Source: Zhihengliuella flava (lineage in GTDB: Bacteria; Actinomycetota; Actinomycetes; Actinomycetales; Micrococcaceae). Taken from it: 64,000 nt of DNA. Positions 41,026 to 60,715 of this stretch are shown piece after piece. Positions within the stretch are counted from its first letter, which is position 1. The number at the start of each line of letters is the position of its first letter. The notes beneath the pieces are model-generated. The model searched no databases. It was given only the letters and a program-made list of their open reading frames with translations, and was not told the origin of the DNA. A program made the translations under genes and the position numbers. Location of the stretch: NCBI RefSeq assembly GCF_015751895.1, contig NZ_JADOTZ010000001.1, positions 1,426,001 through 1,490,000 on the forward strand. Reading direction: 5' to 3'.

Positions 41026-42174
41026 TTAGTCCGTGGCGACCCAGGCGTTGTTGTTCTGATCGCTGCGGACCACGCCGTCGAGGACCCGCTGCACGTGGTG
41101 GCCGTCCGCGAAGGACGGCAGCGGCTGGCGCCCCGCGGCGACGGCCTCGACGAAGTCCTTAGCCTGGTGAACGAATCCGTGCTCGTAGCCGAGGGCGTGC
41201 CCCGTGGGCCACCACGCGGAGAGGTACGGGTGTTCCGGCTCCGTCACCATGATGTTGGCAAAGCCCTGCCGATCCCCCGGCGCCGTCGCGTCATAGAAGC
41301 CCAGCGAGTTGTAGTTCTCGAGGTCAAAGGAGATGGCCCCCGTTGACCCGGAGACCTCGATGCGCAGCGAGTTCTTGCGCCCCGTGGCCATGCGGGTCGC
41401 CTCGAATGAGCCGACGGCGCCGCCGTCGAACCGCGCCGTGAACAGCGCGGCGTCGTCGACCGAGACCTCGCCCCGCTCGCTGCCGCCGGCCGCCAGCGGC
41501 CGCTGATCGACGAAGGTGTTGAGCATCCCGCTGACGCCGGTAACCTTCTGGCCCGTGATGAATTGGGACAGGTCGACGGCGTGCGCGCCCAGGTCGCCGA
41601 GCGCGCCGGTCCCGGCGTGCTCCTTCTGGAGCCGCCACGTGAGCGGCGCGTCGGCGTCCCGCAACCAATCCTGCAGGTAGGCGGCCCGGACTTGACGGAC
41701 CTGACCGATGGCGCCGGACAGCACGAGTTCACGCGCAAAGGCCGCCGCGGGCACCCGGCGGTACGTGAAGCCGATCATGGCCTGCGCCTTCCCGCTCGCG
41801 CGCTCCGCCGCGGCGGCCATAGCGGCCGCCTCCTCGAGCGTGTTGGCCAGCGGCTTCTCGCACAAGACATGCTTGCCCGCTTCGAGGGCGGCAATCGCGA
41901 TCTCCGCATGCGAGTTGCCGGGGGTCACGATGTCGACGACGTCGATATCGTCCCGCTGGATCGCCTCCCGCCAGTCGGTGGCGGTTTCAGCCCACCCCCA
42001 CGTCTCCGCGGCCGCCTCGACGCCGGCAGCGTTGCGGCCGACGAGCAGGCTCATCTGCGGATTGGCAGGGAGGTCGAAGAACCTCGGCGCAACGCGCCAT
42101 CCCTGCGAGTGGGCGGCACCCATGAAACCATGCCCGATCAGGGCGATCCTCAGGGACGGTACTTGGTTGGGCAT
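41026..42174 (-). CDS. Gfo/Idh/MocA-family NAD(P)-dependent dehydrogenase
   Basis: 382 residues from ATG 42174, six bases after AGGAGG. The nucleotide motif is ALIGHGFMGAAHSQGW and the signature CEKPLANTLEEA carries the catalytic lysine; the C-terminal domain includes GDLGAHAVDLSQFITG. The enzyme oxidises a sugar or inositol hydroxyl with NAD(P). It is second in a likely operon: sugar-binding protein, terminator-like hairpin, this gene, TIM-barrel isomerase, SRPBCC protein. Confidence 0.9.
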   Translation of the reverse strand: MPNQVPSLRIALIGHGFMGAAHSQGWRVAPRFFDLPANPQMSLLVGRNAAGVEAAAETWGWAETATDWREAIQRDDIDVVDIVTPGNSHAEIAIAALEAGKHVLCEKPLANTLEEAAAMAAAAERASGKAQAMIGFTYRRVPAAAFARELVLSGAIGQVRQVRAAYLQDWLRDADAPLTWRLQKEHAGTGALGDLGAHAVDLSQFITGQKVTGVSGMLNTFVDQRPLAAGGSERGEVSVDDAALFTARFDGGAVGSFEATRMATGRKNSLRIEVSGSTGAISFDLENYNSLGFYDATAPGDRQGFANIMVTEPEHPYLSAWWPTGHALGYEHGFVHQAKDFVEAVAAGRQPLPSFADGHHVQRVLDGVVRSDQNNNAWVATD

Positions 42175-42221
42175 ATTTCCTCCTGCGTCGGGAAGCATTG
42201 GGTTGGCGTGAGAGCCTCACG

Positions 42222-43387: not shown

Positions 43388-43456
43388 AATAACAGAAGAT
43401 TGGGGAAAATCGACGACCTTCTACCGATGGCCGACATAATGTGTTAGGTTCCTCAC

Positions 43457-46032: not shown

Positions 46033-47151
46033 ATGGAACCGTGGACGACGGCGCCCGCCGGGCCCTCCTCGGCACCGGAGATGCCCTCGCCAGGAGGAAA
46101 CCCGGTGGGCCGCGTCGAGGAGGTGCTGGCGCAGTTCTTCATGGACGGCAAGCTCCGCGCCGCCGCCACGGATCCGGCCTACCTGACGCTCTGGGAGGCC
46201 CTCGAGCAGGCGGTGGCCGGCGGAAAACGCTCGCGCCCGCAGCTGGTGTTGGCCGCCTATCAGCACTTGGCCCGCCCGGCGGAGCGCGCTGCGGAGAACG
46301 CGGTCCTCCTCGCCGCCTCCTTCGAACTGCTCCATAGCGCCTTCGTGGTGCACGACGACGTGATCGACCGGGACACCGTCCGCCGCGGAGTCCCCAACGT
46401 CTCCGGCCGCTACCGCCAGCGCGCCCTCAGGGATGGTGCGGATGCGGATACGGCGGCCCATGCCGGCGACTCGGCCGGGCTCCTCGCCGGAGACCTCGCC
46501 CTGTCCGGGGCCTACCGCCTCCTGCGGCGCGTCCGCACGGCGCCGGAGCGGCGGGAGCGCCTGCACGACATCCTGGATGAGGCGATCTTCGCCTCCATCG
46601 GCGGCGAACTGCTCGACGTCGAACTCAGCCGTTCGCCCGTCATGCCGACGCCGGAGCGCATGTGCCGCACCGCGCGGTGCAAAACGTCCGTTTACTCGTT
46701 CGAGGCGCCGTTGGAGGCCGGCGCCGTCTTGGCCGGTGCAGACTCATCGGTGGTGGCCGCGCTGACCTCCAGTGGCCGCCACGCCGGCATCGCGTATCAG
46801 GTGGTGGACGACGTCCTCGGCGTTTTCGGCCACCACAGCCGAACCGGCAAGGCCGACTGGGGCGACCTGCGGGAGGGAAAACGAACGGTCCTGCTGGCCT
46901 ACGCCGCCACGCGGCCCGAATGGCAGCACATCGCCCACCTCATCGGCTCACCTCACCTGACGGCTGCCGAGGCGGAGCACATCCGCCGAGTCCTCACGGA
47001 CTGCGGCGCCCGCGATCACGCCATCAGTGTGGCCGAGGACAACGCGCGCCGCGCCCTGGACTTTTTGGAGCACGACGGCGTCCCGTCGCCCCTGCGCGCC
47101 GAGCTCACCGCGCTACTCCAAGGCGTCATGGACCGCGTCCGCCCCGAGTGA
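46033..47151 (+). CDS. Polyprenyl diphosphate synthase (GGPP/FPP synthase family)
   Basis: 372 residues. The first aspartate-rich motif is DDVID within FVVHDDVIDRDTVRRG; the second is DDVLG within AYQVVDDVLGVFG. GKRSRPQLV near the N-terminus binds pyrophosphate. It condenses isopentenyl diphosphate with an allylic diphosphate, most likely to a C15-C20 product; chain length cannot be set. Its place in a sugar transport operon is unusual. The UbiA-type gene at 55960 and IPP isomerase at 63059 make a link to prenyl transfer plausible. Confidence 0.9.
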   Translation: MEPWTTAPAGPSSAPEMPSPGGNPVGRVEEVLAQFFMDGKLRAAATDPAYLTLWEALEQAVAGGKRSRPQLVLAAYQHLARPAERAAENAVLLAASFELLHSAFVVHDDVIDRDTVRRGVPNVSGRYRQRALRDGADADTAAHAGDSAGLLAGDLALSGAYRLLRRVRTAPERRERLHDILDEAIFASIGGELLDVELSRSPVMPTPERMCRTARCKTSVYSFEAPLEAGAVLAGADSSVVAALTSSGRHAGIAYQVVDDVLGVFGHHSRTGKADWGDLREGKRTVLLAYAATRPEWQHIAHLIGSPHLTAAEAEHIRRVLTDCGARDHAISVAEDNARRALDFLEHDGVPSPLRAELTALLQGVMDRVRPE

Positions 47152-48581: not shown

Positions 48582-50747
48582 TTAGCTGGTGGCTTCCAGC
48601 ACGACCTCGGCGGTCCCGGTCAGCGGGTCCGAGTTGGCGTCACCGGCATCGGTGTACTCGGCGTTGAAGACGGCCGAGAGATCGTCCACTGCCGGGTCAT
48701 GGCCTTCCGGAACCGTTGTGACGAAGGAACCGGTGCAGCCGTTGGTGGTGGTCTGCGGGTGACCGTGCGTGTGGTGACCGAGGATGTAGGTCACCTCGAC
48801 GCGGGAGCAGTCCACGGGCTGGTCATCCGTCACCGTCACCTCGTAGGAGACGACGTCGCCGAACTGGAAGTCCTGGCCCGGAACGGGCGAGACGAACTCG
48901 ATGACCGGCTGCTGGTTGCCCACCTCGACCTCGACTTCAGCCGAGGAATGGCGTCCGCGGTGCTTGCCGCCGAAGTCGGTGACCGTCAGGGTGGCGACGT
49001 AGTTGCCGTTTTCCTCGTAGGTGTAGGTGGGATTCGGGTCAGTCGAGTCGACCGTCCCATCCGAGTCGAAGTCCCAGGCGTAGCGGAGCTTGTCCCCGTC
49101 GGGATCCACGGTGTCGGCGCTCGAGAACTCAACCGTCAGCGGCGAGGGCCCTGCGGCGGGCGCGCCACTGGCCGCGGCGATCGGCGTGTGGTTGCCGCCT
49201 TCGCCGATGTAGTCGATGCGGGCCACCTGGGCTTCCTCGTTCTCACCGAAGTAGCCGTTGCCGTATTCCAGCACGTACAGCGCGCCGTTGGGTCCGAACT
49301 CCATATCGATCGGGTTCTCGGTGACGAGCGAATCGACGACGTTCTCGATGGACGTCAGCTCGCCGTCCTCTAGGGTCATCGCCTTGATGTAGTCACGGGT
49401 CCACTCGTAGAAGAGTGCCTTGCCGTCGTAGTATTCCGGCCACGCAACCGGGGCCCGGCCGCGGGTGTTCTTCACGTCGAACTCGTAGGCGGGTCCGGCC
49501 ATGGGGCCAATGCCACCCACGCCGAGCTCGGGGAACTCTTCGGAGAGCTCGTAGTTGTACCAAACATCAGACTCGGCCACTGGGGGCAGCTCGGTCAGGC
49601 CGGTGTTGTTCGGGGACTCATTGACCGGAGCCGCACAGTCGAATGGGTCGCCGGACTCGCCCGTGGCGAAGTCGTAATCGATGTACGGCTTGTCCTCGGT
49701 GGCGCAATACGGCCAGCCGTAGTTCGCCGGTTCTTCAACGACGAGCCACCGGCCCGTGCCGCCCGGACCCCGCTCCGGGTCCGCCTCGCGGGCGTCCGGC
49801 GAGTAGTCGCCGACGTAGAGCGCCCCCGTGTCCTGGTCCACGTCAATGCGGAAGGGGTTCCGCAGGCCCATCGCATAAATCTCCGGGCGGGCGCCGTCCG
49901 TGCCCGGCTCAAAGAGGTTGCCCTCCGGGATGGTGTATCCGCCGCCGTCCTGCGGCGTGATGCGCAAGACCTTGCCCCGCAAATCGTTGGTGTTGGCCGA
50001 GGTGCGCTGGGCGTCATAGCCCGGGTTGGACTCAGGCCGCTCGTCAATGGGGGAATACCCTCCCGAGACGAACGGGTTGGTGTCATCACCCGTGGAGAGG
50101 TAGAGGTTGCCTGCCGCGTCGAAGACGATGTCTCCGCCGACGTGGCAGCACAGTCCGCGGGTGGCCTCGACGTCAATGATGTGCTGCTCGCTGGCGAGGT
50201 CAATGTTCTCGCCGTCGAACTGGAACCGGGAGAGGCGGCTCACGCCGTCGAAGGGGGCGAAATCCTCTGCCGTGCCGGAGACCGGAGCGTCGCCCTCGTT
50301 GACGTCCGGCGTCGCCGGGTCATCGACTGGGGTGTCCATAGGCGGCGCGTAGTACAGGTAGACCCAGTTGTTTCCGGCCGTGCCGAAGTCGGGATCCAAG
50401 GCGATGCTCTGCAGCCCCTCCTCGTCATGCCGATACACGTCCACCTGGGCCGCGAGCGAGTTGACGCCCGTCTCAGCGTTGTTGAGCCAAATATCGCCAC
50501 CACGGGTGGTGTGCAGGACGTCTCCGTTGGGCAGGACGGCGAGGTCCATCGGCTCGCCCGGGGTGTCGTTGAGGGTCACCTTCTGGAAGGCGGAATCGGC
50601 GGGCGCGGAGGGCGCCGGCACCTCCGGCCGGGCTTGCGCCGGAGCGGCCGCTAGCGCCGAAACCAAGACGGCCGCTGTCGCCAGCGAGGCGCCCACAGCG
50701 CGTCCACGGCGGGCGCGAGAGGCGCGCACTTCTCGTGTGGAATTCAT
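48582..50747 (-). CDS. Secreted PQQ-type sugar dehydrogenase with PKD domain
   Basis: 721 residues from ATG 50747 (AGGAAG eight bases upstream). An export signal spans about residues 1-40. The soluble glucose/sorbosone dehydrogenase beta-propeller follows (about 50-540): MDLAVLPNGDVLHTTRGG, ARGLCCHVGGD-like (RGLCCHVGGDIVFD), NPFRIDVDQDTG and DMEFGPNGALYVLEYG-like segments. A PKD domain (about 545-640: VEFSSADTVDPDGDKLRYAW) and a further beta-rich tail complete it. It should oxidise sugars outside the membrane using PQQ or a similar quinone. A CRP-type site lies 59 bases upstream. Confidence 0.85.
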   Translation of the reverse strand: MNSTREVRASRARRGRAVGASLATAAVLVSALAAAPAQARPEVPAPSAPADSAFQKVTLNDTPGEPMDLAVLPNGDVLHTTRGGDIWLNNAETGVNSLAAQVDVYRHDEEGLQSIALDPDFGTAGNNWVYLYYAPPMDTPVDDPATPDVNEGDAPVSGTAEDFAPFDGVSRLSRFQFDGENIDLASEQHIIDVEATRGLCCHVGGDIVFDAAGNLYLSTGDDTNPFVSGGYSPIDERPESNPGYDAQRTSANTNDLRGKVLRITPQDGGGYTIPEGNLFEPGTDGARPEIYAMGLRNPFRIDVDQDTGALYVGDYSPDAREADPERGPGGTGRWLVVEEPANYGWPYCATEDKPYIDYDFATGESGDPFDCAAPVNESPNNTGLTELPPVAESDVWYNYELSEEFPELGVGGIGPMAGPAYEFDVKNTRGRAPVAWPEYYDGKALFYEWTRDYIKAMTLEDGELTSIENVVDSLVTENPIDMEFGPNGALYVLEYGNGYFGENEEAQVARIDYIGEGGNHTPIAAASGAPAAGPSPLTVEFSSADTVDPDGDKLRYAWDFDSDGTVDSTDPNPTYTYEENGNYVATLTVTDFGGKHRGRHSSAEVEVEVGNQQPVIEFVSPVPGQDFQFGDVVSYEVTVTDDQPVDCSRVEVTYILGHHTHGHPQTTTNGCTGSFVTTVPEGHDPAVDDLSAVFNAEYTDAGDANSDPLTGTAEVVLEATS

Positions 50748-50805
50748 TGTCAACTTCCTGATCGCGGGGATTCGGATTGACCGGATGGGGTCATTGACGA
50801 CGTTA

Positions 50806-50819
50806 GTGATTCGGGTCAC
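50806..50819. promoter_or_regulatory. CRP/GlxR-type site before the secreted sugar dehydrogenase gene
   Basis: GTGA-TTCGGG-TCAC matches the CRP/GlxR core exactly, with TT-A before it and AA after it. It is 59 bases upstream of the dehydrogenase start (minus strand), within likely promoter distance. Confidence 0.6.
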
Positions 50820-50967: not shown

Positions 50968-52395
50968 CTAAGCGGTCGCGTTCGCCTGAAGCTCCGCCGA
51001 CTCCAGCCCTTGGGCTTGCAGCACGAGGCCTTTGACGGCCGCCGCCGGGACGTGGCGCCCGGAGGTCACCAGCTCCTCAACCCCGCGGGGAATCCGTGGC
51101 TCGGAGGACAGGAGGAGCGGCGTGCCCTCGGCCGACTCGGGAAGCCGCCCGTGGGTCCCCCGGACACACCGGGGGTCCAGCGGCACCGTGCTCATCGCGT
51201 AGCGCAGGCCGGCCTTCTTCTTGACCAGATTCAGGCCCGCCTTCGCCTTGGCCAGCCGATCCGCCGGATCGAAGAACAGCTCCGCCGGGTCGTAACCGGG
51301 CTTGCGGTGGATATCGACGCCGCGGGCGTACTCGGGCGCGCGGTCGTCGTCCAGCCAGAAGTAGTAGGTAAACCACGCGCCGGGCTCGGCCACGACCACC
51401 AGTTCGCCGGAGCGTTCGTGGTCTAGGCCGTAGCGCGCTTGAGCGGCCCGATCCAACACCTCGTCGACTCCGTCGAGGCCACGCAACAGGTCCGCGACGC
51501 GGCCACAATCCGCCTCATCCGCCACGTAGACGTGCGCCACTTGGTGGTCCGCGACCGCGAAGGCGCGGGAGGTCCAGGGGTCCAGTTGCTCACGCCCGGC
51601 CTGGACGTAGACCTCCAGGAGGCCCTCCCGGCGCAGCGCCCGGTTAATGTCCACGGGCCGGTTGGCCTCCTCGATGCCGTACTCGGACACCACCATGACC
51701 GTATATCCGCGATCCTCGGCCTCGTCGAGTAGTGGTGCGAGGACGCCGTCGAGTTCCGCGGCCGCCCGGTCCGCCTCGGCCGACCGCGGACCGAACCGTT
51801 GCAGGTCGTAATCCAAGTGGGGAACGTACGCCGTGAGCAATTGCGGCGCGCGCGTGCGCAGCACGTGACGGGTGGAATTGACGATCCATTGGCTCGACCC
51901 CAGCGCCGCCGTCGGACCCCAGTACTGAAACAACGGGAACTCCCCATAGGCCCCCACGAGCTCATCGTGGAGCGCCGGCGGGCGCATGTAGGCATCCGGG
52001 GATTTGCGCCCGTCGGCATGGTAAATGGGCCGCGGAGTCACGGTGAGGTCCGTGTTCATGCCCATCGCATACCACCAGCAGATGTTGGCCGAGGTGTACC
52101 CCGAATCTTGTTTTCGGGCGGCCTCGACGATGGTCTCGCCGCCGACCAGCCGGTTGTGCTGACGCCACAAGAACACCTCGCCCAGATCCCGGAAGTACCA
52201 CCCGTTGCCCACCACGCCGTGCTGGGCCGGAGACAGCCCGGTCAGCATCGTGGATTGCACCGAGCAGGTCACCGCCGGCAGCACGGTTTTCAGGGGCGCG
52301 GACCAGCCCTGCCCGGCCAGCCGGGCCAGCCGAGGCATGGACCGCAGGGCACGGGAAGTCAGGCCGACGACGTTGAGCAAGAGGATGGGTTTCAC
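50968..52395 (-). CDS. eboF: EboF-type nucleotide pyrophosphatase/phosphodiesterase-like protein
   Basis: 475 residues from GTG 52395 (AGGAG upstream). It belongs to the alkaline phosphatase superfamily, NPP group. PAVTCSVQSTMLTGL contains the usual threonine nucleophile, and HLDYDLQRFGP and VSEYGIEEANRP carry metal ligands. The first metal-binding aspartate, normally in a D-G pair near residue 10, is replaced: the segment reads LLLNVVGLTSRAL. No signal peptide is seen. It is last in the ebo-type operon, 34 bases after eboE. In other clusters EboF is thought to act in transfer of a metabolite across the membrane; activity here is unproven. Confidence 0.8.
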   Translation of the reverse strand: MKPILLLNVVGLTSRALRSMPRLARLAGQGWSAPLKTVLPAVTCSVQSTMLTGLSPAQHGVVGNGWYFRDLGEVFLWRQHNRLVGGETIVEAARKQDSGYTSANICWWYAMGMNTDLTVTPRPIYHADGRKSPDAYMRPPALHDELVGAYGEFPLFQYWGPTAALGSSQWIVNSTRHVLRTRAPQLLTAYVPHLDYDLQRFGPRSAEADRAAAELDGVLAPLLDEAEDRGYTVMVVSEYGIEEANRPVDINRALRREGLLEVYVQAGREQLDPWTSRAFAVADHQVAHVYVADEADCGRVADLLRGLDGVDEVLDRAAQARYGLDHERSGELVVVAEPGAWFTYYFWLDDDRAPEYARGVDIHRKPGYDPAELFFDPADRLAKAKAGLNLVKKKAGLRYAMSTVPLDPRCVRGTHGRLPESAEGTPLLLSSEPRIPRGVEELVTSGRHVPAAAVKGLVLQAQGLESAELQANATA

Positions 52396-52429
52396 GATTC
52401 TCCTGGGCAGCAGTGGGGTCAACGGGTAT

Positions 52430-53569
52430 TCACGAAAGGGGCGCCGAGGCCGCGGGCGCGGCACGCAGCAGGTGGCGGCGGGCCCAGTCCAGCTCGGCGG
52501 CAATGCCATCGATCAGCCCGACGCCGGCGTCGGGCAAGACGCTCCACGTGTAGGTCTCCACGTCGAGGTGGACCTCGGGTCCGTAGGGCAGGCGGGCCAC
52601 CTCGGCGACGGTTTGCCGGAGGTCCTCGACGGTGGTGTCCAGAGGCACGGCCGGCCGGTGGTGGAGCGGAATATGGAAGTGCACCCGCCACGGCCCCTGC
52701 CCGGGGAGCTCGGCAAGGGCGGCATCGAGATCATCGGCCGACCGCACGCCGTCGGCAGATAATTCACGCACTTGGTGCAGATAGCGCGGCTCCACGAAGC
52801 CGGCCAGCGCGCTGCGCGCTGCCGGCACGGACGGATCGTCCACGTGCAGCGCCGCGGACGCCTGAACCTTCACCACCCGCAGCCCGGCCGCATCAATCTC
52901 CGCGATCGCTGCGGCCGGATCGGCAAAGGACACCGCGAGGTGGCAGGCATCCACGCACACGCCCACGTAGTTCGGATCGATCCCCCGGCTCAGCCGGTCC
53001 CCGAGCCAGCCGGCCACGTCGGAGATCGTGTCCAACACGCAGCCCGGCTCGGGCTCGACGGCGACGCGGATCGTCCGTCCGGTGCTCTGCCGCAACTGCT
53101 CCAACCGTGTGCTGAGCTCCGCGAACGCCGCCGTGGCGACGTCGTCGTCCTGCTCGGTCCACGGGTGCCGCCACGCCAACGGCAGGGTCGAGATGGAGCC
53201 GTCCGCCCCGGCGGGTAACAAGTCCGCGAGGATCGCGGCACAATCGAGGGTGTAGTCGAGCCGTGCCCGGTCCGCCCACGTCGGCCGGTAGACGGCGTGC
53301 TTGACGACGTCGTCGTGAAATCCCCCGTATGGAAAGGCGTTGAGCGTGTGCAGCACGAGGCCCTCGGCCTCCAGCACCGCGCGCAGCGCCGCGCGGTCGT
53401 CCGCGCTGGCCGCCAAGTGGCGGGCCAAGCCGGCGGGAAGCCACAGCCCCACGCCCAGCGCCTCGAGCCCGGCGGCGCGCCGGATCGAGCCGGCGTAGTC
53501 GCGCATCTGGCGGATGACACCCTCGAGGTCCTCGGCGGGGTGAACGTTGGTGCAATAGGAGAGCAGCAT
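52430..53569 (-). CDS. eboE: EboE-type TIM-barrel protein (metabolite traffic protein)
   Basis: 379 residues from ATG 53569, which shares one base with the stop of the TatD-like gene (TGATG). The N-terminus LLSYCTNVHPAEDLEGV is the hallmark of EboE. Further features are LHTLNAFPYGGFHDDVVKHAVY, VAVEPEPGC, VCVDACHLAVSF and VHFHIPLHH. It is a xylose-isomerase-like barrel of unknown substrate, tied to the ebo cluster. The barrel has plausible metal ligands (Glu, Asp, His), so an enzymatic role is likely. Confidence 0.87.
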   Translation of the reverse strand: MLLSYCTNVHPAEDLEGVIRQMRDYAGSIRRAAGLEALGVGLWLPAGLARHLAASADDRAALRAVLEAEGLVLHTLNAFPYGGFHDDVVKHAVYRPTWADRARLDYTLDCAAILADLLPAGADGSISTLPLAWRHPWTEQDDDVATAAFAELSTRLEQLRQSTGRTIRVAVEPEPGCVLDTISDVAGWLGDRLSRGIDPNYVGVCVDACHLAVSFADPAAAIAEIDAAGLRVVKVQASAALHVDDPSVPAARSALAGFVEPRYLHQVRELSADGVRSADDLDAALAELPGQGPWRVHFHIPLHHRPAVPLDTTVEDLRQTVAEVARLPYGPEVHLDVETYTWSVLPDAGVGLIDGIAAELDWARRHLLRAAPAASAPLS

Positions 53570-54447
53570 CAGACGCGCGCCCCGCGCAGGACGGAATTGC
53601 CCTCGAACCCGGCGGACGGATCCGGGAACCCCGATTCGTCGAAGCCCGCCACGGGCTCGAGGATCAGCTGCCCGCTCTGGCCATAAAAGTTCACGGGATT
53701 CTGCCAGAGCACGTGGTCCACGTCCTCGGCGGAGAACCCGGCCTCCAGCATCGCTTCCGCGGTGCGGCGCGTCTTCAGGGGGTCGGAGCGCCCCCAGTCC
53801 GCCGCCGAGTTCACCAGGACGCGCTCCGTGCCGTATCGCTGGAGCAAGGCGACCATCCGGGACTCGTCCATTTTGGTGTCCGGGTAGATGGAGAACCCCA
53901 TCCACGCGCCGGCGTCCTTGACCAGCTCAATATTGGTCTCGTTGAGGTGATCAACCAAGACGGCCTCCGGAGCAATTCCGGATTCGCGCACCACGTCGAG
54001 GGTGCGGCGGGTGCCGGCCAACTTTTCCCGGTGCGGGGTGTGGACCAACGCCGGCAGGGCGTACTCGCGGGCCAACTGTAGCTGCCGCGCGAACGCGTCA
54101 TCCTCGGCCGGGGTCATCGAGTCATAGCCGATTTCCCCGACGGCTACGACGCCTTCCTTCACGAGGTACCGCGGCAGCTCCTCAAGGACCGGAACGCAGC
54201 GCGGATCGTTTGCTTCCTTCGGGTTTAAAGCGATCGTGGCGTGATGGCGGATGCCAAATTGGGCGGCCCGGAAACGCTCCCACCCGAGGAGGGAGTCAAA
54301 GTAGTCCAGGAACGACTCGACGCTGGTGCGGGGCTGACCCAGCCAGAACGCCGGCTCGACGAGGGCGCGCACGCCGGCGGCATACATCGCCTCGTAGTCA
54401 TTGGTGGTGCGGCTGGTCATGTGAATGTGGGGGTCGAAAATGCGCAT
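53569..54447 (-). CDS. eboB: TatD-family metal-dependent hydrolase (EboB-type)
   Basis: 292 residues. The amidohydrolase-type metal site is visible as PHIHM at residues 6-10, VGEIGYDSM, ALVHTPHRE, LVDHLNE and NSAADWGRSDP. It resembles the TatD-like hydrolases found in ebo clusters rather than the DNase TatD itself. It lies ten bases downstream of the isomerase-EboA fusion gene and overlaps eboE. The natural substrate is unknown; hydrolysis of a cyclitol or sugar derivative is inference. Confidence 0.87.
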   Translation of the reverse strand: MRIFDPHIHMTSRTTNDYEAMYAAGVRALVEPAFWLGQPRTSVESFLDYFDSLLGWERFRAAQFGIRHHATIALNPKEANDPRCVPVLEELPRYLVKEGVVAVGEIGYDSMTPAEDDAFARQLQLAREYALPALVHTPHREKLAGTRRTLDVVRESGIAPEAVLVDHLNETNIELVKDAGAWMGFSIYPDTKMDESRMVALLQRYGTERVLVNSAADWGRSDPLKTRRTAEAMLEAGFSAEDVDHVLWQNPVNFYGQSGQLILEPVAGFDESGFPDPSAGFEGNSVLRGARV

Positions 54448-54457
54448 GGAGTCCTTC

Positions 54458-55963
54458 TTAGATGTGGCTGGTGTGGCTAGATTCGAGCGTGAGGAGCGCC
54501 AGATCCGCGGGGACCGGACGGGAGGCGGCGCGCCGCTCGGCGGCGAAGTCGGCGGCCATCCGCGCCAATTCCGGATCGCGGCGGTGCTCCAGGTCCGTCA
54601 CGGCGTCAAGGCTCACGCCCATGAAGACGAGCTTCAGGACGGCGTGACGCCACGCGTGCTGGTCCAGATGAGCCGCCGCAAACGGGCCCACCGCGGCGGC
54701 CACCAGCGAGGTTTCGTTGGTGCGCAGCGCGTCGGCCGTGGCCTCAAGCCCCACGCGGACGACGGCGTCGTTCAGAACCGCGGCCTCCCGCGCCATGGCG
54801 CCCAGGCCGCGCAGCACGCCCCGCCGCTCGGCGGAATCGCCTCGGCGGTAGAGGTCGGCCACCGCCTCGGCGAGCGCGGGGGCAGGAAGCGCGGCTTCCG
54901 TGCCGGGGCCCGCGAGTTGTGCGATGAGCTGGCCGCGAGCGACGTCGGCCGCCGTCCCCCACACAATGCCCGTCGGATCGGCCGCAGGATTCACCGGCGC
55001 TCGGCCCACGTGGCGGCCCGCCATCGCGAAGACGACGGGCAGGCGGGACGGATCGGCGAGCACCGCCGTCGTGGACTCCTGCACCCAGTCCGCCTGCCGG
55101 CGCTGCGCCTGCGCCTGCGCCCAGGCCTCACGCAGCGCGGCCATGCTGCGCTGAACGAGGCCCGGGCCGTCGTGCGAGTGGCGGGGCAGTTCCACGGCCG
55201 CTACGCCCCGATAGTCCAACTCGGCGAGCGTGGACAGGGCCTCGACCAGATCCACCGCACCGTCGCCGAAGGGTAGGTGCTCGTGAGTGTGCGGTGGCAT
55301 GTCGTCGAGCTGGACGTTGGTCAGCAGGTCGCCCGCCTGTAGCAGCGCCCCGCGCACCCCCTCGGGCTCCACGACGACGCAATGCCCAATGTCCACGGTG
55401 ACGCCCAGCGCTGACGGTGCACCAAGCGCGCGGTGCAGGTCCAGCGCGTCGGCCACCGTCTCCACGAGCATCCCCGGCTCCGGCTCGATCGAGAGCTTGA
55501 CCCCCTGCGCCTCGGCATACTCCAGAAGCTCGCGGACCCGAGCGGTCAGCCGTTCCCAGCCAGTCTCCGGCGTGGCCTCCGGCGGAAGAACCCCGGAGAA
55601 GAAGGACACGCACTCGGCATCGAGGGCGGCGCTGACGTCCACCGCGCGGCGCAGGAAATCCAGCCGCGGCACTGCCTCCGGGTCCACGAGGGCCGGGGCG
55701 TGCTTGCGCCGCGGGTCCAGCAGGAATCGGGTGCCCGTCTCGATGACGACGCGCATGCCATGCCCCTGCAGGTGGGACCTTAGCTGGGCGATCTGGGTTA
55801 GCGCGTCGGGCGCCAACGGGTCGAGGTGCGGATGGCCAAGGGTCAGTGCCACCGCGTCGTACCCTTGCTCGGCCATCAGTTCTAAGGCCACCGGGAGCGG
55901 GTGATCGGTCAACCCATTGGTTCCGTACCCCAGCGCGAAGGGCAGCGGGGAGCTCGTGGTCAT
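54458..55963 (-). CDS. eboA: Fusion: sugar isomerase TIM barrel plus EboA domain
   Basis: 501 residues from ATG 55963, which overlaps the UbiA-type stop (ATGA). Residues about 1-275 are a xylose-isomerase-like barrel: FALGYGTNGLTDHPL, LSIEPEPGM, VTVDIGHCVVV, NVQLDDMPPHTHEHLPFGDG and AVELPRHSHDGP. After an Ala/Gln-rich linker the C-terminal 200 residues are helical and EboA-like (GVLRGLGAMAREAAVLNDAVV, HLDQHAWRHAVLKLVFMG). In cyanobacterial clusters EboA is a separate small protein, so the fusion suggests that the two parts work together. Domain assignment is good and function unknown. Confidence 0.83.
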   Translation of the reverse strand: MTTSSPLPFALGYGTNGLTDHPLPVALELMAEQGYDAVALTLGHPHLDPLAPDALTQIAQLRSHLQGHGMRVVIETGTRFLLDPRRKHAPALVDPEAVPRLDFLRRAVDVSAALDAECVSFFSGVLPPEATPETGWERLTARVRELLEYAEAQGVKLSIEPEPGMLVETVADALDLHRALGAPSALGVTVDIGHCVVVEPEGVRGALLQAGDLLTNVQLDDMPPHTHEHLPFGDGAVDLVEALSTLAELDYRGVAAVELPRHSHDGPGLVQRSMAALREAWAQAQAQRRQADWVQESTTAVLADPSRLPVVFAMAGRHVGRAPVNPAADPTGIVWGTAADVARGQLIAQLAGPGTEAALPAPALAEAVADLYRRGDSAERRGVLRGLGAMAREAAVLNDAVVRVGLEATADALRTNETSLVAAAVGPFAAAHLDQHAWRHAVLKLVFMGVSLDAVTDLEHRRDPELARMAADFAAERRAASRPVPADLALLTLESSHTSHI

Positions 55964-56856
55964 GATTCGCTCACCTTTCGTCCGGAGGTGCGGGTGCGCA
56001 GGAGCCGTCCGGCCACGTCGACGGCGCCGATCACCGCCGCCGCGTGCCAGCTGCCGTGGCGCAGGGCGAGCGCGGCTTGCAGCGGGAGCATCGATCGGAT
56101 GCCGTTTTTGGTGGCCTCGAGCGCGTTGGCCGCCGTGGGGCGCTCGGCGGCGCGCCACTGCGGTCTCCCGCACCGCGCGGCATAGACGGCTGCGGCTGCC
56201 ACAACGGGCAGGACCCTGCCGGGGTTGGCCGGCCCCGCCGCGTGCAGCGCGCCGGAGACCACCGCCGTCGTCACCGCCGCCGTGGTGGCGACGGCGGCCG
56301 ACGCCGTGCCGCGCTCCGTACCGTTCACCTCGCCGCGGGAGAGGGCCGTGACGGCCACCGTGTGGCTGCCCATGACGACGGCGGCCGGCAGGGCGGCCCG
56401 GGCCCGCTCCGCCCCCGCGCCCATCAAGACGTCGAGCCCGCGGCAGACACCCATGGCGGCAGCGCCCGTCACGGCGTTGCGCTTGGCCACTAGGTCATAG
56501 GTCCAGATGGACGCCGCGAGCGGTAGTGCGACCGCCCCCGAGCCGCGCCCTCCGCCAGCGAGGCTGAGCGCGAGTCCCAGCCCAGTCAGTCCCGCGGCGG
56601 TACCGAGGGCAGCACGCGAGGTGATGCGGCCGGAGGGGATCGGGCGCTCGGGCCGCTCCACGGCGTCGAGCTCGCGGTCCGCGTAGTCGTTGAGCGCCAT
56701 GCCCGCGGCGTAGAGGCACGCGCTGGCGACCGGTAGGGCGAGACGCCGGCCCCACAGTGGCTGACCGGCGGCGGCTCCCCCGGCGAGCGTGTCACCGAGC
56801 ACGGTGAGCACGGCAGGGGCCCGGACCAGCTCGAGGTAGTCGTGCGCGCGGATCAC
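55960..56856 (-). CDS. eboC: UbiA-type prenyltransferase of the SCO3242 family (EboC)
   Basis: 298 residues from the GTG overlapping the preceding stop (GTGA; a second GTG three bases earlier is equally possible). About eight membrane segments are present. The prenyl-diphosphate motif is NDYADRELDAVERPERPIPSG-like (NDxxDxxxD) and the second motif is in CRGLDVLMGAG. It should transfer a polyprenyl group to a small polar acceptor at the membrane. A polyprenyl synthase at 46033 could supply the donor. The acceptor might be the product of the adjacent inositol-phosphate synthase homologue; this is inference. Confidence 0.85.
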   Translation of the reverse strand: MIRAHDYLELVRAPAVLTVLGDTLAGGAAAGQPLWGRRLALPVASACLYAAGMALNDYADRELDAVERPERPIPSGRITSRAALGTAAGLTGLGLALSLAGGGRGSGAVALPLAASIWTYDLVAKRNAVTGAAAMGVCRGLDVLMGAGAERARAALPAAVVMGSHTVAVTALSRGEVNGTERGTASAAVATTAAVTTAVVSGALHAAGPANPGRVLPVVAAAAVYAARCGRPQWRAAERPTAANALEATKNGIRSMLPLQAALALRHGSWHAAAVIGAVDVAGRLLRTRTSGRKVSES

Positions 56857-58118
56857 CACGTGGCCACGCGATCCTGAGCGCCGGCGGCGGTCACCCGCTC
56901 CCCCGTGGCGTGCGCCCACGCGGCCAGTTGCTGGCTCTGCTCCGCAAAGGCGAACTCATCACTGCCCCACGGATCCTTGAAGAAGAATCCCAGCTCGCCA
57001 ATCGGCCCGGAGGCACCGGCAGCGTCGGCCAGCGCCATGAGGCGGGCGAGGTCCAAGATCATCGGGGCGGCCAGCATCGAATCGAAGGCACTCCACGTGG
57101 TTTGCAGCGTCAGGCGGGAACCGAGGAAGCCCTCCACGTTGATGTGGTCCCACGCGACTTTGGTTTCACCGAGGTCGGGCACGTTGTCGATGTGCAGTGG
57201 CGTTGCGGCGCCGCTGGCGAGGGATTCGAGGCCGCGGTTTTTGGAGAGCAGCTTGCCGGAGACCGCGTCCGGATCGGACAGGGTGGCCCCGTCCCCGCCG
57301 CCGAGCAGGTTGGCGCCGGCCCACGACAGCACGCGCAGCCCGCGCGCGGCGAGCCCGGGCGCGATCACCGAGCGCAGCCACGTCTGTCCCGTCTTGCCGT
57401 CTTGGCCTGCCGTGGGGATCCCCCGCTGCCGGGCGAGTTCGCGCAACGCCGGGATGGTGAGTGCGGGCGAGGGCGTGAAGCAGACATAGGGTGCCCCCGC
57501 GAGAATCGCGGCGTAGGCTCCCAGCGAGCTGGGCGGCAAAGTCGCCTGGGCGGGGTCCTCGAGCGCCGCGAGCAGCAGCTCAGGGTCATCGAATTCTGGC
57601 CGGGGGGCCACGGGAGCCTCGGTGGAGGAAACGTCCATGACCACTACGCGGTCCAGACGATGCTCCCGCGTGAAGTCCTCAATGTCGCGAGCCAAGCGGC
57701 GGGCCACGGCGGCCTGCGAGGAGCCGCCGGACTCCGGGTGGTAGCCGGGCCGTACCCGCGCGTCCGCCTCGTCGAGATCACCGCGCACCGCTTCCATCAG
57801 ATGCAACGGCAGCATGCCGGCTCCCACCAGATACTCCGCGCGCTTGGCGAGAGAGACGTCGCTAATGTCATGACCGCCGATGACCAGCTCGGAGAATTCC
57901 GGCAGCGGAACGGCGTCGAACACCCTCTGATCGGTCACGCAGCCCGTGGCCGGGGCGAATCCGCCGGAGATCGCGGCCAGCCCCGTGGCCGCGGTCGTGG
58001 CCACCGATCCGCGCGCGCCGATGAGCCATAGCCCGACGCGGCCCACGCGCGTCGGCTTCTCGGCGCTGGCGTCGGCCCCCGGCGCATTCTCGGTACTCCG
58101 GCCTGCTGATGTGACCAC
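56853..58118 (-). CDS. Myo-inositol-1-phosphate synthase family protein, first gene of the ebo-type operon
   Basis: 421 residues from GTG 58118 (AAAGGA seven bases upstream). The family features are an NAD-binding GLWLIGARGSVATTAATG near residue 28, VMDVSSTEAP, GQDGKTGQTWLRSVIAP with the catalytic lysine region, and SKNRGLESLASGAATPLHIDNVPDLGETK-type segments. The canonical reaction cyclises glucose 6-phosphate to inositol phosphate. It is more divergent than housekeeping Ino1, so the substrate may differ. It sits where many ebo operons encode EboD, a sugar-phosphate cyclase of the dehydroquinate-synthase fold. Confidence 0.85.
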   Translation of the reverse strand: MVTSAGRSTENAPGADASAEKPTRVGRVGLWLIGARGSVATTAATGLAAISGGFAPATGCVTDQRVFDAVPLPEFSELVIGGHDISDVSLAKRAEYLVGAGMLPLHLMEAVRGDLDEADARVRPGYHPESGGSSQAAVARRLARDIEDFTREHRLDRVVVMDVSSTEAPVAPRPEFDDPELLLAALEDPAQATLPPSSLGAYAAILAGAPYVCFTPSPALTIPALRELARQRGIPTAGQDGKTGQTWLRSVIAPGLAARGLRVLSWAGANLLGGGDGATLSDPDAVSGKLLSKNRGLESLASGAATPLHIDNVPDLGETKVAWDHINVEGFLGSRLTLQTTWSAFDSMLAAPMILDLARLMALADAAGASGPIGELGFFFKDPWGSDEFAFAEQSQQLAAWAHATGERVTAAGAQDRVATW

Positions 58119-58426
58119 GTCATTGTCCTTTCACCTGCGGTAGTCCGTACGCCTCGGCTGTGAGGCGGTGCGCTCGCGGCGCTGGCCTGCGCACCGCGCA
58201 CCAGCGTCAATGAGACGTTGATCACAGAACGTAGCACGGCTAATGACGACTAACAACGAATGTTGGACACCTTTCGATGTATCAGTGCCGTCTCCGATCA
58301 GCCTTCGGTCGAATGGTGAATGGTGAAAATTCCTTGCCTTCATCCGGGCGTCTGCCAGCTGGCCCTAGGGGAAAGACGGCGGCACATCACGGAGCATTTC
58401 GTCGATACATATGCTGTAATGAGTCG
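58119..58426. other. Divergent promoter region between the ebo-type operon and a ROK regulator
   Basis: 308 bases without a convincing gene. A frame from 58277 continues into the ROK gene, but the segment before 58427 does not match the family and I treat it as non-coding. ATGTATC (58277-58283) and GATACAT (58404-58410) form a spaced inverted repeat inside similar TTTCG contexts and are candidate regulator sites. No hairpin terminator or clear CRP site was seen. Confidence 0.5.
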
Positions 58427-59635
58427 ATGAATGACATAAGCACCTTCGGCGGGCTGGGCAGCTCCGGCGCCAGCGAACTCTTTCAGATCCTCCGCGACGG
58501 CCGCCCCCGCACTCGCACCGAGCTCGCGGAGCAGATGGGCTTGGCCCGCTCCACGGTGACGCTCCGGATTGAGGCCCTGATGGAACTCGGCCTCGTGGGC
58601 TTCGTGGAGGAAACGGCCGCCACCGGCGGGCGCCCCTCCTCGCGCATCGCCCTGCGGGCTGGCAGCAAGGTGGTCCTCGGGGTGGACATCGGCGCCTCCC
58701 ACCTACGCGTGGCCGTGACCGATCTCGCGGGGCACCGGCTGCAGGAGAGCACGCGCTCCATCGAGGTCTCCCAGGGCCCCGAGGCCGTGCTTGAGGCCGT
58801 CGTCGAGCTCTCCACCGCCCTCCTCGATGAATCCGGCCGCCACCGTGAGGACCTGCTAGCCATCGGCATCGGCGTCCCCGGGCCGGTGGAGCACCGCACC
58901 GGCCGGCCCATCAACCCGCCGATCATGCCGGGGTGGAACGGATTCGACGTTCCTGGCTACCTGCAGGATCACTTCCACGCCCCAGTCCTCGTCGATAACG
59001 ACGTCAACATCATGGCCCTCGGCGAGCGGAATGCCGCATGGTCCGACGTCGATGACCTCCTGTTCGTCAAGGTGGCCACCGGCATTGGCTCCGGCATCGT
59101 CTCCAGCGGAATGTTGCAGCGGGGCGCCGACGGCGTCGCGGGGGACATCGGCCATATTCGCGTCCTCAGCGGCGATGGCGTTCCCTGCCACTGCGGCAAT
59201 CGCGACTGCCTCGAGGCCGTCGCCTCCGGGCCGGCCGTCGCCACCAAGCTGCGGGAGCTGGGGCTTGAGGCGCGAACAAGCGAGGACGTCGTTCGGCTCG
59301 TTCAGGCCGGCAATACGGACGCGATTCACGCCGTGCGCCAGGCGGGCCGGGACGTCGGCGAGGTGCTCTCCGCCTGCATCAGCCTGATGAACCCGTCCGT
59401 CATTGTGGTGGGCGGGTCCATGACCATGACCGGCGAGCACTTCATTGCCGGCATCCGGGAGGTCGTGTACTCCCGAACCATCCCGCTGGCCACCCAGCAC
59501 CTCCGCATTGTGCAGTCCGGCTCGGGGCTGGACGCCGGCGTGCTGGGCGCGAGTATGCTCGCGATCCACCATGCCATGTCCCCGGAGCGCATCGACGCTA
59601 TGGTGAGCGCCCTGCCCTCCGGCTCCAAGGCATAG
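58427..59635 (+). CDS. ROK-family transcriptional regulator, divergent from the ebo-type operon
   Basis: 402 residues from ATG 58427; no strong ribosome-binding site is visible. The winged helix (LFQILRDGRPRTRTELAEQMGLARST) is followed by a ROK domain with VLGVDIGASHLRVAV, the zinc motif CHCGNRDCLE and SVIVVGGSMTMTGE. The glycine-rich VDIGASH nucleotide-like segment suggests that it may still bind a sugar, as ROK repressors do. Its position suggests control of the operon at 50968-58118 and of the exported TIM-barrel gene downstream. Confidence 0.9.
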   Translation: MNDISTFGGLGSSGASELFQILRDGRPRTRTELAEQMGLARSTVTLRIEALMELGLVGFVEETAATGGRPSSRIALRAGSKVVLGVDIGASHLRVAVTDLAGHRLQESTRSIEVSQGPEAVLEAVVELSTALLDESGRHREDLLAIGIGVPGPVEHRTGRPINPPIMPGWNGFDVPGYLQDHFHAPVLVDNDVNIMALGERNAAWSDVDDLLFVKVATGIGSGIVSSGMLQRGADGVAGDIGHIRVLSGDGVPCHCGNRDCLEAVASGPAVATKLRELGLEARTSEDVVRLVQAGNTDAIHAVRQAGRDVGEVLSACISLMNPSVIVVGGSMTMTGEHFIAGIREVVYSRTIPLATQHLRIVQSGSGLDAGVLGASMLAIHHAMSPERIDAMVSALPSGSKA

Positions 59636-59782: not shown

Positions 59783-60715
59783 ATGTGTTTCGGATTCAAC
59801 GCCCCCGCCGCCCTCAATCGCTCGCTGGAAGAAAAGGGGGTTGGCCGCCGCAACTTCCTGCGCGGAGCTGCCGCCGTAGGTGCCGGCATCGGCCTCGCGG
59901 GCCTCGGCGGGACGGCCGCCCTGGCCTCGCCGGCCGGCCGCCGCCCCGTGCCCCCAGGGCTGATCAGCATCCAGCTGTACACCTTGCGTTCGATCATGCA
60001 GGGCGACGGCGTCGACGCCACGCTGGCCTCGCTGGCGGACTACGGCTACACCAAGGTGGAGCTGGCGGGTCTCTACGGCCGCACGGCGGAGCAGATGCGC
60101 GCCACCCTGGACTCGCTGGGCATCACGCCGTCGTCGAGCCACGACGGCATCAGCGGTTCCGCTGCCGCGCTGGAGACCAAGCTGGCCAACGCCGTAACCC
60201 TCGGCCAGACGCACATCAACGTCCCCTACCTGAACTCCAGCAACGGCGACGACTGGCGCCGCTGGGCTGACCAGATGAACGAAGAGGCCGCGGCCGCCAA
60301 CGCGGTGGGCCTCAAGTACGGTTACCACAACCATGCGCACGAGTTCACCACCGATCTCGGCGGCGGGCTGAGCCCATGGGACATCTTCGTGGAGCGCTTG
60401 GACCCGAAGCTCGTGCACTTTGAGATCGACCTCTACTGGGCCGTGACCGGCGGCGTCGGCGTCGGCGCCGCGGACCCCGTGCAGTTCGCCATCGAGACCA
60501 TTCAGCAGGCCCCGCAGAAGACCTTGCAGTATCACGTCAAGGATCGGGACGCCTCCGGCGATTTCGCCGATCTGGGCACCGGGCAGATCGACTTCGCGCG
60601 CATCTTCAACGCGCACCGGGTCAAGGAGTTCATCGTGGAGAACGACCGCCCGGATGTCACCCCGCTACAGACCGCCGAGGTGGGCTACAACTACCTGCGC
60701 TCCCTGCGCTTCTAG
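59783..60715 (+). CDS. Tat-exported sugar isomerase-like TIM-barrel protein
   Basis: 310 residues. AGGAAGG precedes the ATG. A twin-arginine signal (GRRNFLRGAAAVGAG, cleavage near ALASPAG) indicates export in a folded, probably metal-loaded state. The barrel follows: ISIQLYTLRSIM, YGYTKVELAGLYG, YGYHNHAHEF, FEIDLYWAVTGG and YHVKDRDASG, with Glu/Asp/His metal ligands. Extracellular members of this family have been linked to breakdown of oxidised sugars. The secreted sugar dehydrogenase at 48582 could supply such a substrate; that pairing is inference. Confidence 0.88.
   Translation: MCFGFNAPAALNRSLEEKGVGRRNFLRGAAAVGAGIGLAGLGGTAALASPAGRRPVPPGLISIQLYTLRSIMQGDGVDATLASLADYGYTKVELAGLYGRTAEQMRATLDSLGITPSSSHDGISGSAAALETKLANAVTLGQTHINVPYLNSSNGDDWRRWADQMNEEAAAANAVGLKYGYHNHAHEFTTDLGGGLSPWDIFVERLDPKLVHFEIDLYWAVTGGVGVGAADPVQFAIETIQQAPQKTLQYHVKDRDASGDFADLGTGQIDFARIFNAHRVKEFIVENDRPDVTPLQTAEVGYNYLRSLRF

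Follow-up and report, generated by a model that had tools for sequence, protein, structure and literature searches.

The window, the whole 64,000-nucleotide stretch of the Zhihengliuella flava genome analyzed here, carries six minus-strand genes at 50968–58118 that an earlier note on this DNA had described as ebo-like. Their positions are confirmed with several starts refined, and the protein identities put forward in that note (inositol-phosphate synthase [MIPS], UbiA, TIM barrel-EboA fusion, TatD, EboE, and EboF) are borne out by Pfam and NCBIfam profile searches. The genes are as follows:

56853..58118, minus strand: MIPS homologue, archaeal-type; GTG start at 58118; PF07994 and PF01658
55960..56859, minus strand: UbiA-superfamily prenyltransferase, SCO3242 family; GTG start at 56859; PF01040
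54458..55963, minus strand: TIM barrel-EboA fusion; ATG start at 55963; PF01261 and EboA_domain
53569..54447, minus strand: TatD-like metallo-hydrolase in the EboB position; start at 54447; PF01026
52430..53569, minus strand: EboE, a TIM-barrel protein; ATG start at 53569, overlapping the TatD stop; NCBIfam EboE
50968..52395, minus strand: EboF, phosphodiesterase/phosphatase family; GTG start at 52395; PF01663

Around them lie:

48582..50819, minus strand: glucose/sorbosone-dehydrogenase-type propeller with a PKD domain; probably secreted, as judged by eye; recurrent neighbor
46033..47151, plus strand: polyprenyl diphosphate synthase; neighbor in a minority of clusters
58277..59635, plus strand: ROK-family regulator, divergent from the operon
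59783..60715, plus strand: sugar phosphate isomerase/epimerase (PF01261); N-terminal twin-arginine-like signal by eye; recurrent neighbor
39972..40973, minus strand: second sugar phosphate isomerase/epimerase; weak IolE match; recurrent neighbor of MIPS-type clusters
41026..42198, minus strand: Gfo/Idh/MocA oxidoreductase, levoglucosan-dehydrogenase-like but below cut-off; looser neighbor

Adjacent genes of the operon overlap or are separated by at most 34 bases, so a single transcript for all six is likely. A promoter/terminator scan returned 2 promoter-like and 4 terminator-like matches (0.7 and 3.8, respectively, in shuffled sequence). One match of each kind falls between EboF and the propeller gene, which may therefore be transcribed apart; the ROK-family gene possibly regulates the operon. 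The identical seven-piece order recurs in 76 of 105 tabulated loci (L024 through L128, EboD-type and contig-end loci counted in), and MIPS leads the run in each of these 76. By comparison, none of 40 control stretches of 19 kb (hand-placed, non-random, from seven sampled genomes) has a match to MIPS, UbiA, the TIM barrel, TatD, EboE, or EboF, the EboA piece being outside this tally; chance co-location of the cluster genes is thereby ruled out.

The propeller gene lies near roughly half of the clusters or more and is on the operon's strand in all 46 loci counted. A polyprenyl synthase gene accompanies 3 of 17 and 7 of 59 clusters, compared with 0 of 40 controls, relatives being non-independent in these counts, which the Fisher values leave out of account; in L024 and L056 it immediately precedes MIPS, in the same orientation. 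Part of the clusters also have isomerases, Gfo/Idh oxidoreductases, RbsB/RbsC-type importer genes, and ROK regulators as recurrent neighbors, and a 56% identical copy of the 39972..40973 isomerase adjoins the cluster of Gemmatirosa (below). Neither the Gfo/Idh gene at 60886 nor the one at 62075 is linked (0 of 59 clusters), and ThuA and IDI were rejected as linked genes (2 of 59 and 1 of 59).

The cluster MIPS matches the NAD-binding domain at 165 bits (cut-off 25) and Inos-1-P_synth at 89 bits (cut-off 27). Its closest solved relative is Archaeoglobus fulgidus Ino1 (PDB: 1u1i; 203 bits), which serves ordinary inositol synthesis in archaea and whose product is a phosphorylated ring. Residues N270, D240, K289, K293, K320, D346, and K381 occupy the Ino1 active-site positions, and all seven are retained in 38 of 38 cluster MIPS proteins, which excludes a dead enzyme. 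In a tree of 59 rows (without duplicates, and with one in three of the best-80 loci) the actinobacterial cluster proteins form a single clade that spans several families and is far from housekeeping Ino1. Judged by its sequence, the cluster MIPS is thus archaeal-type and distinct from the housekeeping enzyme, and its predicted activity is synthesis of inositol phosphate from glucose 6-phosphate. It is not the cell's sole inositol synthase, as Z. flava has a second MIPS at 1579160; another copy is present in 15 of 17 cluster-bearing genomes (12 in the housekeeping clade, three on the archaeal-type side), and G268 and G318 hold the cluster copy alone.

The prenyltransferase had been taken for EboC, an assignment that the NCBIfam scores do not favor: the protein passes the SCO3242 prenyltransferase model (NF045897; 327.7 bits, cut-off 260) and falls below that of EboC (168.3 bits, cut-off 250). 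TIM-barrel and UbiA proteins outside the ebo families had been named as counting against an ebo-type operon; this applies by half, in that NCBIfam puts the UbiA protein in the SCO3242 family and under the EboC cut-off, yet the EboC model looks narrow, since the UbiA proteins of EboD clusters in Azospirillum and Deinococcus (89 and 96 bits) also miss its cut-off. The NDxxDxxxD motif is intact, with N57, D58, D61, and D65 present in 82 of 83 actinobacterial copies. The nearest structure by both fold and sequence is digeranylgeranylglyceryl-phosphate (DGGGP) synthase (PDB: 6m31, 7bpu), albeit at 19% identity; the acceptor of that enzyme is a phosphorylated polyol, a glycerol-phosphate ether.

The fusion protein comprises an N-terminal sugar-isomerase-type TIM barrel (residues ∼1 through 300) and a C-terminal all-helical EboA domain (∼338 through 491; EboA_domain, 139 bits, cut-off 50); among the 50 fold matches listed none is EboA-specific, because the TIM barrel occupies all 50. 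The isomerase-EboA fusion highlighted in the earlier note is present, but it is neither the usual state nor new: barrel and EboA are fused in 15 and split in 75 of 90 loci (some "split" calls may reflect sequencing errors, and start positions in relatives are rough), and PMC5133447 already mentioned such a fusion in 2016. EboE scores 427 bits (cut-off 250). In the TatD-like protein H7, H9, E105, H136, H167, and D217, the TatD metal residues, are kept in 98 of 98 actinobacterial copies. EboF retains a Thr at the nucleophile position and has altered metal motifs in which customary metal ligands are missing, so that a hydrolytic role is unsure. Both the EboF pattern and the conserved TatD residues are common to EboD-type copies.

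To what extent MIPS stands in for EboD was surveyed in 396 actinobacterial genomes using curated cut-offs for the EboE, SCO3242, and EboD (NF004852-type) models. EboE and SCO3242-type UbiA exceed their cut-offs in the identical 17 genomes, and in each of these the cluster includes MIPS; EboD does so in one, which is the sole further EboE genome and has a cluster without MIPS. In Z. flava the single EboD match (183 bits, cut-off 333) is at 203037–203750 of the contig, outside the cluster, and is probably AroB-like. A second set consisted of the best 80 of 577 confirmed loci matching the window, all actinobacterial by their titles, among which relatives are non-independent samples. A flank filter dropped 2 of 19 and 18 of 80 loci, leaving 17 and 62. 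Both cyclases occur together in none of these 17 and 62 loci (the 62 from the best 80 of 577), nor in any of 9 EboD-type and 4 nonactinobacterial MIPS-type ebo loci. The mutual exclusion anticipated in the earlier note thus holds wherever it was examined, with the two forms in separate genomes among the 396, and supports its view that an unrelated sugar-phosphate cyclase occupies EboD's place. The cyclases are exchanged, but not in a simple one-for-one swap, as MIPS clusters also bring an extra TIM barrel.

Neither cyclase is present in seven loci whose flanks are long enough. A cluster-type MIPS is found elsewhere in the genome for 4 of 5 MIPS-less clusters; in the Lentzea locus L061 it is ∼26 kb away, and the place directly upstream of UbiA is taken by a sugar ABC importer. 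In G128 it sits in an additional cluster; the broken cluster of G279 has the core without a local cluster-type MIPS, and G400 (L105) has the ebo core and no cluster-type MIPS in its genome. The idea that MIPS-less clusters contain a third cyclase was rejected, since none was recognized by eye in the frames upstream of UbiA in L074, L061, L025, and L096.

Beyond actinobacteria, three haloarchaeal plasmids carry a reduced MIPS-type cluster, in which no EboA or EboE was detected (two Halobaculum barrels score 20 and 22 bits with the EboE profile; other haloarchaeal EboE scoring was by tblastn with the Z. flava window protein). A plasmid of Gemmatirosa (Gemmatimonadota), the replicon covered by its EboD search, carries a MIPS-type ebo cluster nested within the EboD branch of the EboF tree (seven-row node, 100/99), and this nesting indicates more than one cyclase exchange. 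The extra TIM barrel is matched in 4 of 4 nonactinobacterial MIPS-type loci (the three haloarchaeal matches weak, 93 to 96 bits) and in none of 9 EboD loci, the EboD-type (n = 9) and haloarchaeal (n = 3) samples being small and, except for G381, plasmid-borne. An isomerase-like barrel accompanies MIPS in both the actinobacterial and the Gemmatirosa lineages. Next to the Ketogulonicigenium cluster, one of the nine EboD loci, another kind of sugar isomerase is annotated. Not all plasmid MIPS belong to ebo-like clusters; the Runella, Roseomonas, and Hymenobacter copies examined lie outside them.

eboABCDEF is known from cyanobacteria, Bacteroidota, other bacteria, and eustigmatophyte plastids, and in Pseudomonas fluorescens ebo belongs to the EDB cluster; a role in metabolite export is reported from Nostoc deletion mutants (PMC6282210). 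The Z. flava cluster shares the EboA domain, TatD-like EboB, a UbiA enzyme, EboE, and EboF, but has MIPS plus an additional TIM barrel, no EboD, and a UbiA of the SCO3242 type. EboD-type cyclases release phosphate (PMC5133447), so that their products and the phosphorylated product of an Ino1-like enzyme would not be interchangeable without an extra step. Movement of a prenylated carbocycle across the membrane has already been proposed for the EboD form (PMC5133447, PMC6282210), and BE-40644 biosynthesis in Actinoplanes likewise proceeds from a sugar-phosphate-derived cyclitol to UbiA-superfamily farnesylation (PMC5133447). In Streptomyces coelicolor, SCO3242, which gives the prenyltransferase family its name, and SCO3243, listed as a myo-inositol phosphate synthase, appear among the calcium-dependent-antibiotic cluster genes (PMC3610822); the likeness is by the paper's listing, which treats them as antibiotic-cluster genes. 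We found no paper linking this pair to ebo and, in the open-licence literature, none joining ebo or EboA with inositol or inositol-3-phosphate synthase; the main texts of PMC5133447, PMC6282210, PMC6092422, and PMC9235831 do not contain the word "inositol."

Gene content and order, exclusion of EboD across the examined loci, preserved catalytic residues, and recurrent exchange, together with linkage of polyprenyl synthase (a minority of clusters) and the propeller (about half or more), all support an ebo variant. We put at about one half the probability that in this variant a dedicated archaeal-type MIPS supplies the carbocycle provided elsewhere by EboD and the UbiA enzyme prenylates an inositol-type cyclitol. 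From the same data we infer all substrates, cyclitol prenylation, step order, and export. MIPS would convert glucose 6-phosphate to inositol phosphate, and the extra TIM barrel would isomerize or epimerize this ring or the corresponding inosose. The UbiA enzyme would transfer a prenyl chain from polyprenyl diphosphate to the ring, most likely to a hydroxyl, by analogy with DGGGP synthase and its phosphorylated polyol acceptor. EboF and the TatD-like hydrolase could remove or rearrange ester groups, EboE could modify the head group, and EboA may form a membrane scaffold for the enzymes. The lipid-linked cyclitol would be a carrier or product at the outer face, with the dehydrogenase propeller possibly acting on it there.

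Other readings, whose probabilities overlap with this one and do not sum to one, bear on the acceptor and the ring. The likeness to DGGGP synthase, with its phosphorylated polyol acceptor, speaks against prenylation of an aromatic acceptor with the cyclitol as a separate head group, osmolyte, or cofactor of a traffic system, a scheme that we regard as unlikely. It would agree with the farnesylation in vitro of 6 of 14 aromatic acceptors by flavobacterial EboC homologues, quinoline acids best (PMC9235831), and with the aromatic rings of the scytonemin monomer exported by Nostoc (PMC6282210). The in vitro farnesylation counts against the main reading, as does the failure to find a lipid-conjugated monomer in Nostoc (PMC6282210); the acceptors in the part of PMC9235831 consulted are, however, described as exclusively aromatic. 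Use of a different sugar phosphate, or formation of a different carbocycle, overlaps the main reading and departs from it in the ring alone. A MIPS-fold five-membered-cyclitol-phosphate synthase has been solved (6k96), and among the 38 cluster MIPS the Ino1 D259 position is Gly in every one and the S273 position Ser in only 16; nevertheless, the enzyme scores 31 bits with 6k96 against 203 with Ino1, and the complete retention of the seven tested positions makes this alternative, too, improbable.

Still less is expected of a sugar or inositol utilization locus in which MIPS and isomerases balance free inositol beside an independent ebo core. The recurrent isomerases, Gfo/Idh, importers, and ROK regulators fit such a locus, as does the Lentzea arrangement of importer and distant MIPS; MIPS nonetheless heads the run in 76 exact-order loci from several families, 15 of 17 genomes own another MIPS, and MIPS and the TIM barrel accompany an EboD-lineage core in Gemmatirosa too. 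That the proteins form a metabolite-traffic complex without a prenylated product, a membrane assembly with MIPS in a structural or sensing role, is suggested by the all-helical EboA and its proposed help in forming an EboCAB complex (PMC6282210), but is very unlikely given the catalytic-site residues retained in MIPS, UbiA, and TatD and the Thr kept by EboF.

A wider view can be offered tentatively, at well below even odds: ebo would be a head-group-defined lipid pathway making cyclitol isoprenoid ethers in bacteria and haloarchaea, in which two unrelated cyclases, either able to provide the ring, displaced each other repeatedly, and whose MIPS form yields a prenyl ether of an inositol isomer that is exported and finished outside by the secreted propeller. 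Such an ether would be a so far unseen lipid class. Since both cyclases must feed related downstream enzymes, the replacement of EboD constrains the identity of the ring, and a replacement family with a known product, inositol phosphate, makes an inositol-type ring a testable ebo building block. The cluster also offers a reading for the S. coelicolor genes listed under calcium-dependent antibiotic production.

The six minus-strand genes at 50968-58118 of the window overlap their neighbors or lie no more than 34 bases from them:

56853-58118, minus strand, myo-inositol-phosphate synthase homolog (MIPS)
55960-56859, minus strand, UbiA prenyltransferase
54458-55963, minus strand, TIM barrel of sugar-isomerase type fused to an EboA domain
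53569-54447, minus strand, TatD-like hydrolase
52430-53569, minus strand, EboE
50968-52395, minus strand, EboF

Pfam and NCBIfam bear out the gene names proposed in the earlier note, with one correction: the UbiA protein scores as SCO3242 family (327.7 bits; NCBIfam cut-off 260) and falls below the cut-off of the EboC model (168.3 bits; cut-off 250). Because UbiA proteins of EboD clusters also score under that cut-off (Azospirillum, 89.1 bits; Deinococcus, 96.3 bits), the miss is a matter of subfamily. The cluster is like the ebo operon in its parts and their order; however, EboD is the defining gene of that operon and is missing here, so this is not a standard ebo operon but looks like a variant of one. 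A 2016 paper puts forward an isoprenoid-cyclitol product for EboD operons and already mentions, as data not shown, the TIM-EboA fusion in Actinobacteria (PMC5133447); a cyclitol lipid carrier is put forward in a 2018 paper (PMC6282210), and another paper places SCO3242 and SCO3243 among the calcium-dependent-antibiotic genes (PMC3610822). Our literature searches found no paper joining ebo with inositol-phosphate synthase.

Across a phylum sample of 396 actinobacterial genomes, EboE exceeds its cut-off in 18 (any match, 19), SCO3242-type UbiA in 17 (173 counting weaker matches), and the EboD-type model NF004852 in 1 (359 counting weaker matches). All 17 SCO3242-UbiA genomes fall within the 18 EboE genomes and have MIPS inside a cluster; the leftover EboE genome, G381, is the EboD genome. 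The suggestion that EboD and MIPS exclude each other holds in every neighborhood with enough flank: none carries both among 17 of the 19 in the phylum sample (MIPS only, 14; EboD only, 1; neither, 2) or among 62 of the named loci, the best 80 of 577 matches to the window (MIPS only, 57; neither, 5). Likewise, neither MIPS nor the extra TIM barrel was matched in any of nine EboD-type loci (G381, two Deinococcus, Azospirillum, Ketogulonicigenium, Roseivivax, two Salipiger, and Mycetohabitans); in Ketogulonicigenium another annotated sugar isomerase adjoins the cluster. The exact order MIPS-UbiA-TIM-EboA-TatD-EboE-EboF recurs in 76 of 105 tabulated loci, a table that takes in EboD-type, haloarchaeal, and contig-end loci, and the TIM barrel and EboA are fused in 15 of the 90 loci with both pieces on one strand, being split in the remainder.

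Five of the 62 named loci (best 80 of 577) have the core without MIPS (L061, L074, L083, L096, and L105). For four of these a cluster-type MIPS is found elsewhere in the genome at 475-531 bits, except in genome G398, where it is in two pieces (335 and 153 bits) on the same contig as a second EboE; in G400 (L105) the sole MIPS match is housekeeping-like (63 bits). A propeller gene of glucose/sorbosone-dehydrogenase type lies near the detached MIPS in three of these genomes (L216, L217, and L219), and a second MIPS copy in one such genome (L218) sits on a short contig next to pieces of UbiA and TIM. L025 also lacks MIPS, which is present in the second cluster of the same genome (L027). L042 in G279, with EboE and UbiA in pieces and no MIPS found locally, is a decayed ebo-type cluster; G279 has a MIPS on another contig (L148), positioned outside the housekeeping clade. 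At L061 (2306-7036) of Lentzea flava, an ABC importer for sugars stops 6 bases short of UbiA in the MIPS-less operon, and a cluster-type MIPS lies ∼26 kb from that operon; the arrangement looks as if import could stand in for ring synthesis.

The closest solved relative of the cluster MIPS is Ino1 from Archaeoglobus fulgidus, which scores 202.8 bits, as against a far weaker 30.8 bits for the five-membered-cyclitol-phosphate synthase 6k96. Ino1 residues N255, D225, K274, K278, K306, D332, and K367, which we take to be the catalytic positions, are unchanged in all 38 actinobacterial cluster MIPS and all 14 housekeeping MIPS compared; in alignments with solved structures, some entries have alanine at K278 and at K367. 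Two neighboring positions differ: D259 is glycine in all 38 cluster proteins, and S273 is serine in 16 of them. In the MIPS tree the cluster proteins make up one clade (38 rows; support 100/94), and very long branches set it apart from that of the housekeeping enzymes (14 rows; 100/100); Ino1 falls on the cluster side, its exact place on a long row being unsure. Of the 17 genomes, 15 have a further MIPS outside the cluster; the tree places 12 of these among the housekeeping enzymes and the other 3 on the archaeal-type side. L140, L142, and L144 are extra copies on the archaeal-type side, outside the cluster, in three genomes of one family in which no MIPS was found in the usual actinobacterial housekeeping clade. 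A different MIPS-linked cluster, unlike ebo, occurs on Roseomonas and Hymenobacter plasmids (L161, 7650-16816; L162, 7575-16276), with MIPS, Gfo/Idh, a YcaO-like protein, a sugar isomerase, and a PIG-L deacetylase, plus a glycosyltransferase in Roseomonas.

MIPS-type ebo loci extend beyond actinobacteria, and all four examined there give hits to both MIPS and the extra TIM barrel, the latter weakly in haloarchaea. On three haloarchaeal plasmids, MIPS, EboF, a TatD-like hydrolase, UbiA, and a pair of isomerase-type barrels sit together in one block, and tblastn detected neither EboA nor EboE there; the EboE profile (cut-off 250), applied to the two Halobaculum barrels, gives 20 and 22 bits, and the Natronococcus block is followed by a TIM barrel protein, a PQQ-dependent sugar dehydrogenase, and an importer. 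A Gemmatirosa plasmid carries EboE, TatD, EboF, UbiA, MIPS, and the TIM barrel, with no EboD found on searching the plasmid. In the EboF tree (46 rows) Gemmatirosa falls within the EboD-type branch (node with six EboD rows, 100/99; wider ten-row node, 81/100). If the tree holds, MIPS would thus have replaced EboD, or the reverse, at least one more time, apart from the actinobacterial lineage.

Neighboring genes were counted at 17 phylum-sample loci (including the EboD locus L028), at the 59 named loci that span 19 kb or more, and in 40 arbitrary control stretches of 19 kb taken from seven genomes of the sample; as related genomes are not independent, the counts show linkage and not its strength. 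The propeller gene is present at 10/17, 35/59, and 0/40, respectively, and on the operon strand in all 46 loci counted (>200 bits; 36 upstream, 10 downstream). The sugar isomerase SPI is found at 8/17, 31/59, and 0/40, and ROK regulators at 2/17 and 15/59 versus 0/40 (other ROK, 2/17 and 14/59 versus 1/40). The Gfo/Idh gene at 60886 is not linked (0/17, 0/59, and 0/40). A polyprenyl synthase occurs at 3/17, 7/59, and 0/40; it is on the operon strand before MIPS (L024 and L056), after EboF (L036 and L072), or far upstream (L061), and on the opposite strand in L041, L049-L052, and L069. The best NCBIfam match of the window copy (46033-47151) is family 2 encapsulin cargo polyprenyl transferase, at 174 bits (cut-off 450). 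A type 1 isopentenyl-diphosphate isomerase lies at 63059-63928, upstream of the operon and ∼5 kb from where it starts; this gene is near clusters at 2/16 phylum-sample and 1/59 named loci, with no enrichment in the latter.

Window positions 39972-46026 hold a sugar-use cassette of isomerase, levoglucosan-dehydrogenase-like Gfo/Idh, RbsB-type binding protein, ATPase, and permease. The cassette isomerase (39972) is found at 5/16 phylum-sample and 31/59 named loci, 0/40 controls, and 0/9 EboD-type loci, and a copy (56% identity) adjoins the Gemmatirosa MIPS cluster. Corresponding values are 2/16, 12/59, 0/40, and 1/9 for the Gfo/Idh (41026) and 1/16, 13/59, 0/40, and 1/9 for the permease; the binding protein occurs at 1/16, 12/59, and 0/40, and the ATPase is not specific (5/16, 19/59, and 6/40 controls).

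The UbiA motif NDxxDxxxD is kept in 82 of 83 actinobacterial copies. The UbiA model (pLDDT 92.8) is nearest to DGGGP synthase (7bpu and 6m31; E ∼1e-7), followed by an A. fulgidus UbiA homolog and a membrane phosphoribosyltransferase. The TIM-EboA model (pLDDT 95.3) pairs a 3-epimerase-like barrel, with UlaE as top structure match and IolI also among the matches, with an all-helical EboA domain. TatD-like residues that we presume to be the metal residues are conserved in the cluster copies. EboF has threonine at the nucleophile position in 98 of 99 copies, and GLT, PHLDYDLQR, and SEYGI at what are presumably the metal-ligand positions of related phosphonoacetate hydrolases. With the metal motifs replaced (GLT and SEYGI) and the threonine kept, EboF catalysis may be unusual; the altered pattern is common to MIPS-type copies and the four EboD-type copies compared.

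MIPS and EboD are each predicted to turn a sugar phosphate into a polyhydroxylated ring, and each lies next to a UbiA enzyme and a common set of hydrolases. On the simplest account, drawn from sequences and models, this ring would be the acceptor that UbiA prenylates; the polyprenyl synthase linked to the clusters supports a prenyl donor, and the resemblance of UbiA to DGGGP synthase supports a phosphorylated polyol as acceptor. Against it, flavobacterial EboC homologs are reported to prefer quinolines in vitro, although the acceptors described in that work were aromatic (PMC9235831), and a lipid-linked monomer was not seen in Nostoc (PMC6282210). If the ring made by the cluster cyclase is indeed the acceptor, the extra TIM barrel would adjust an inositol phosphate to suit the enzymes that both cluster types share.
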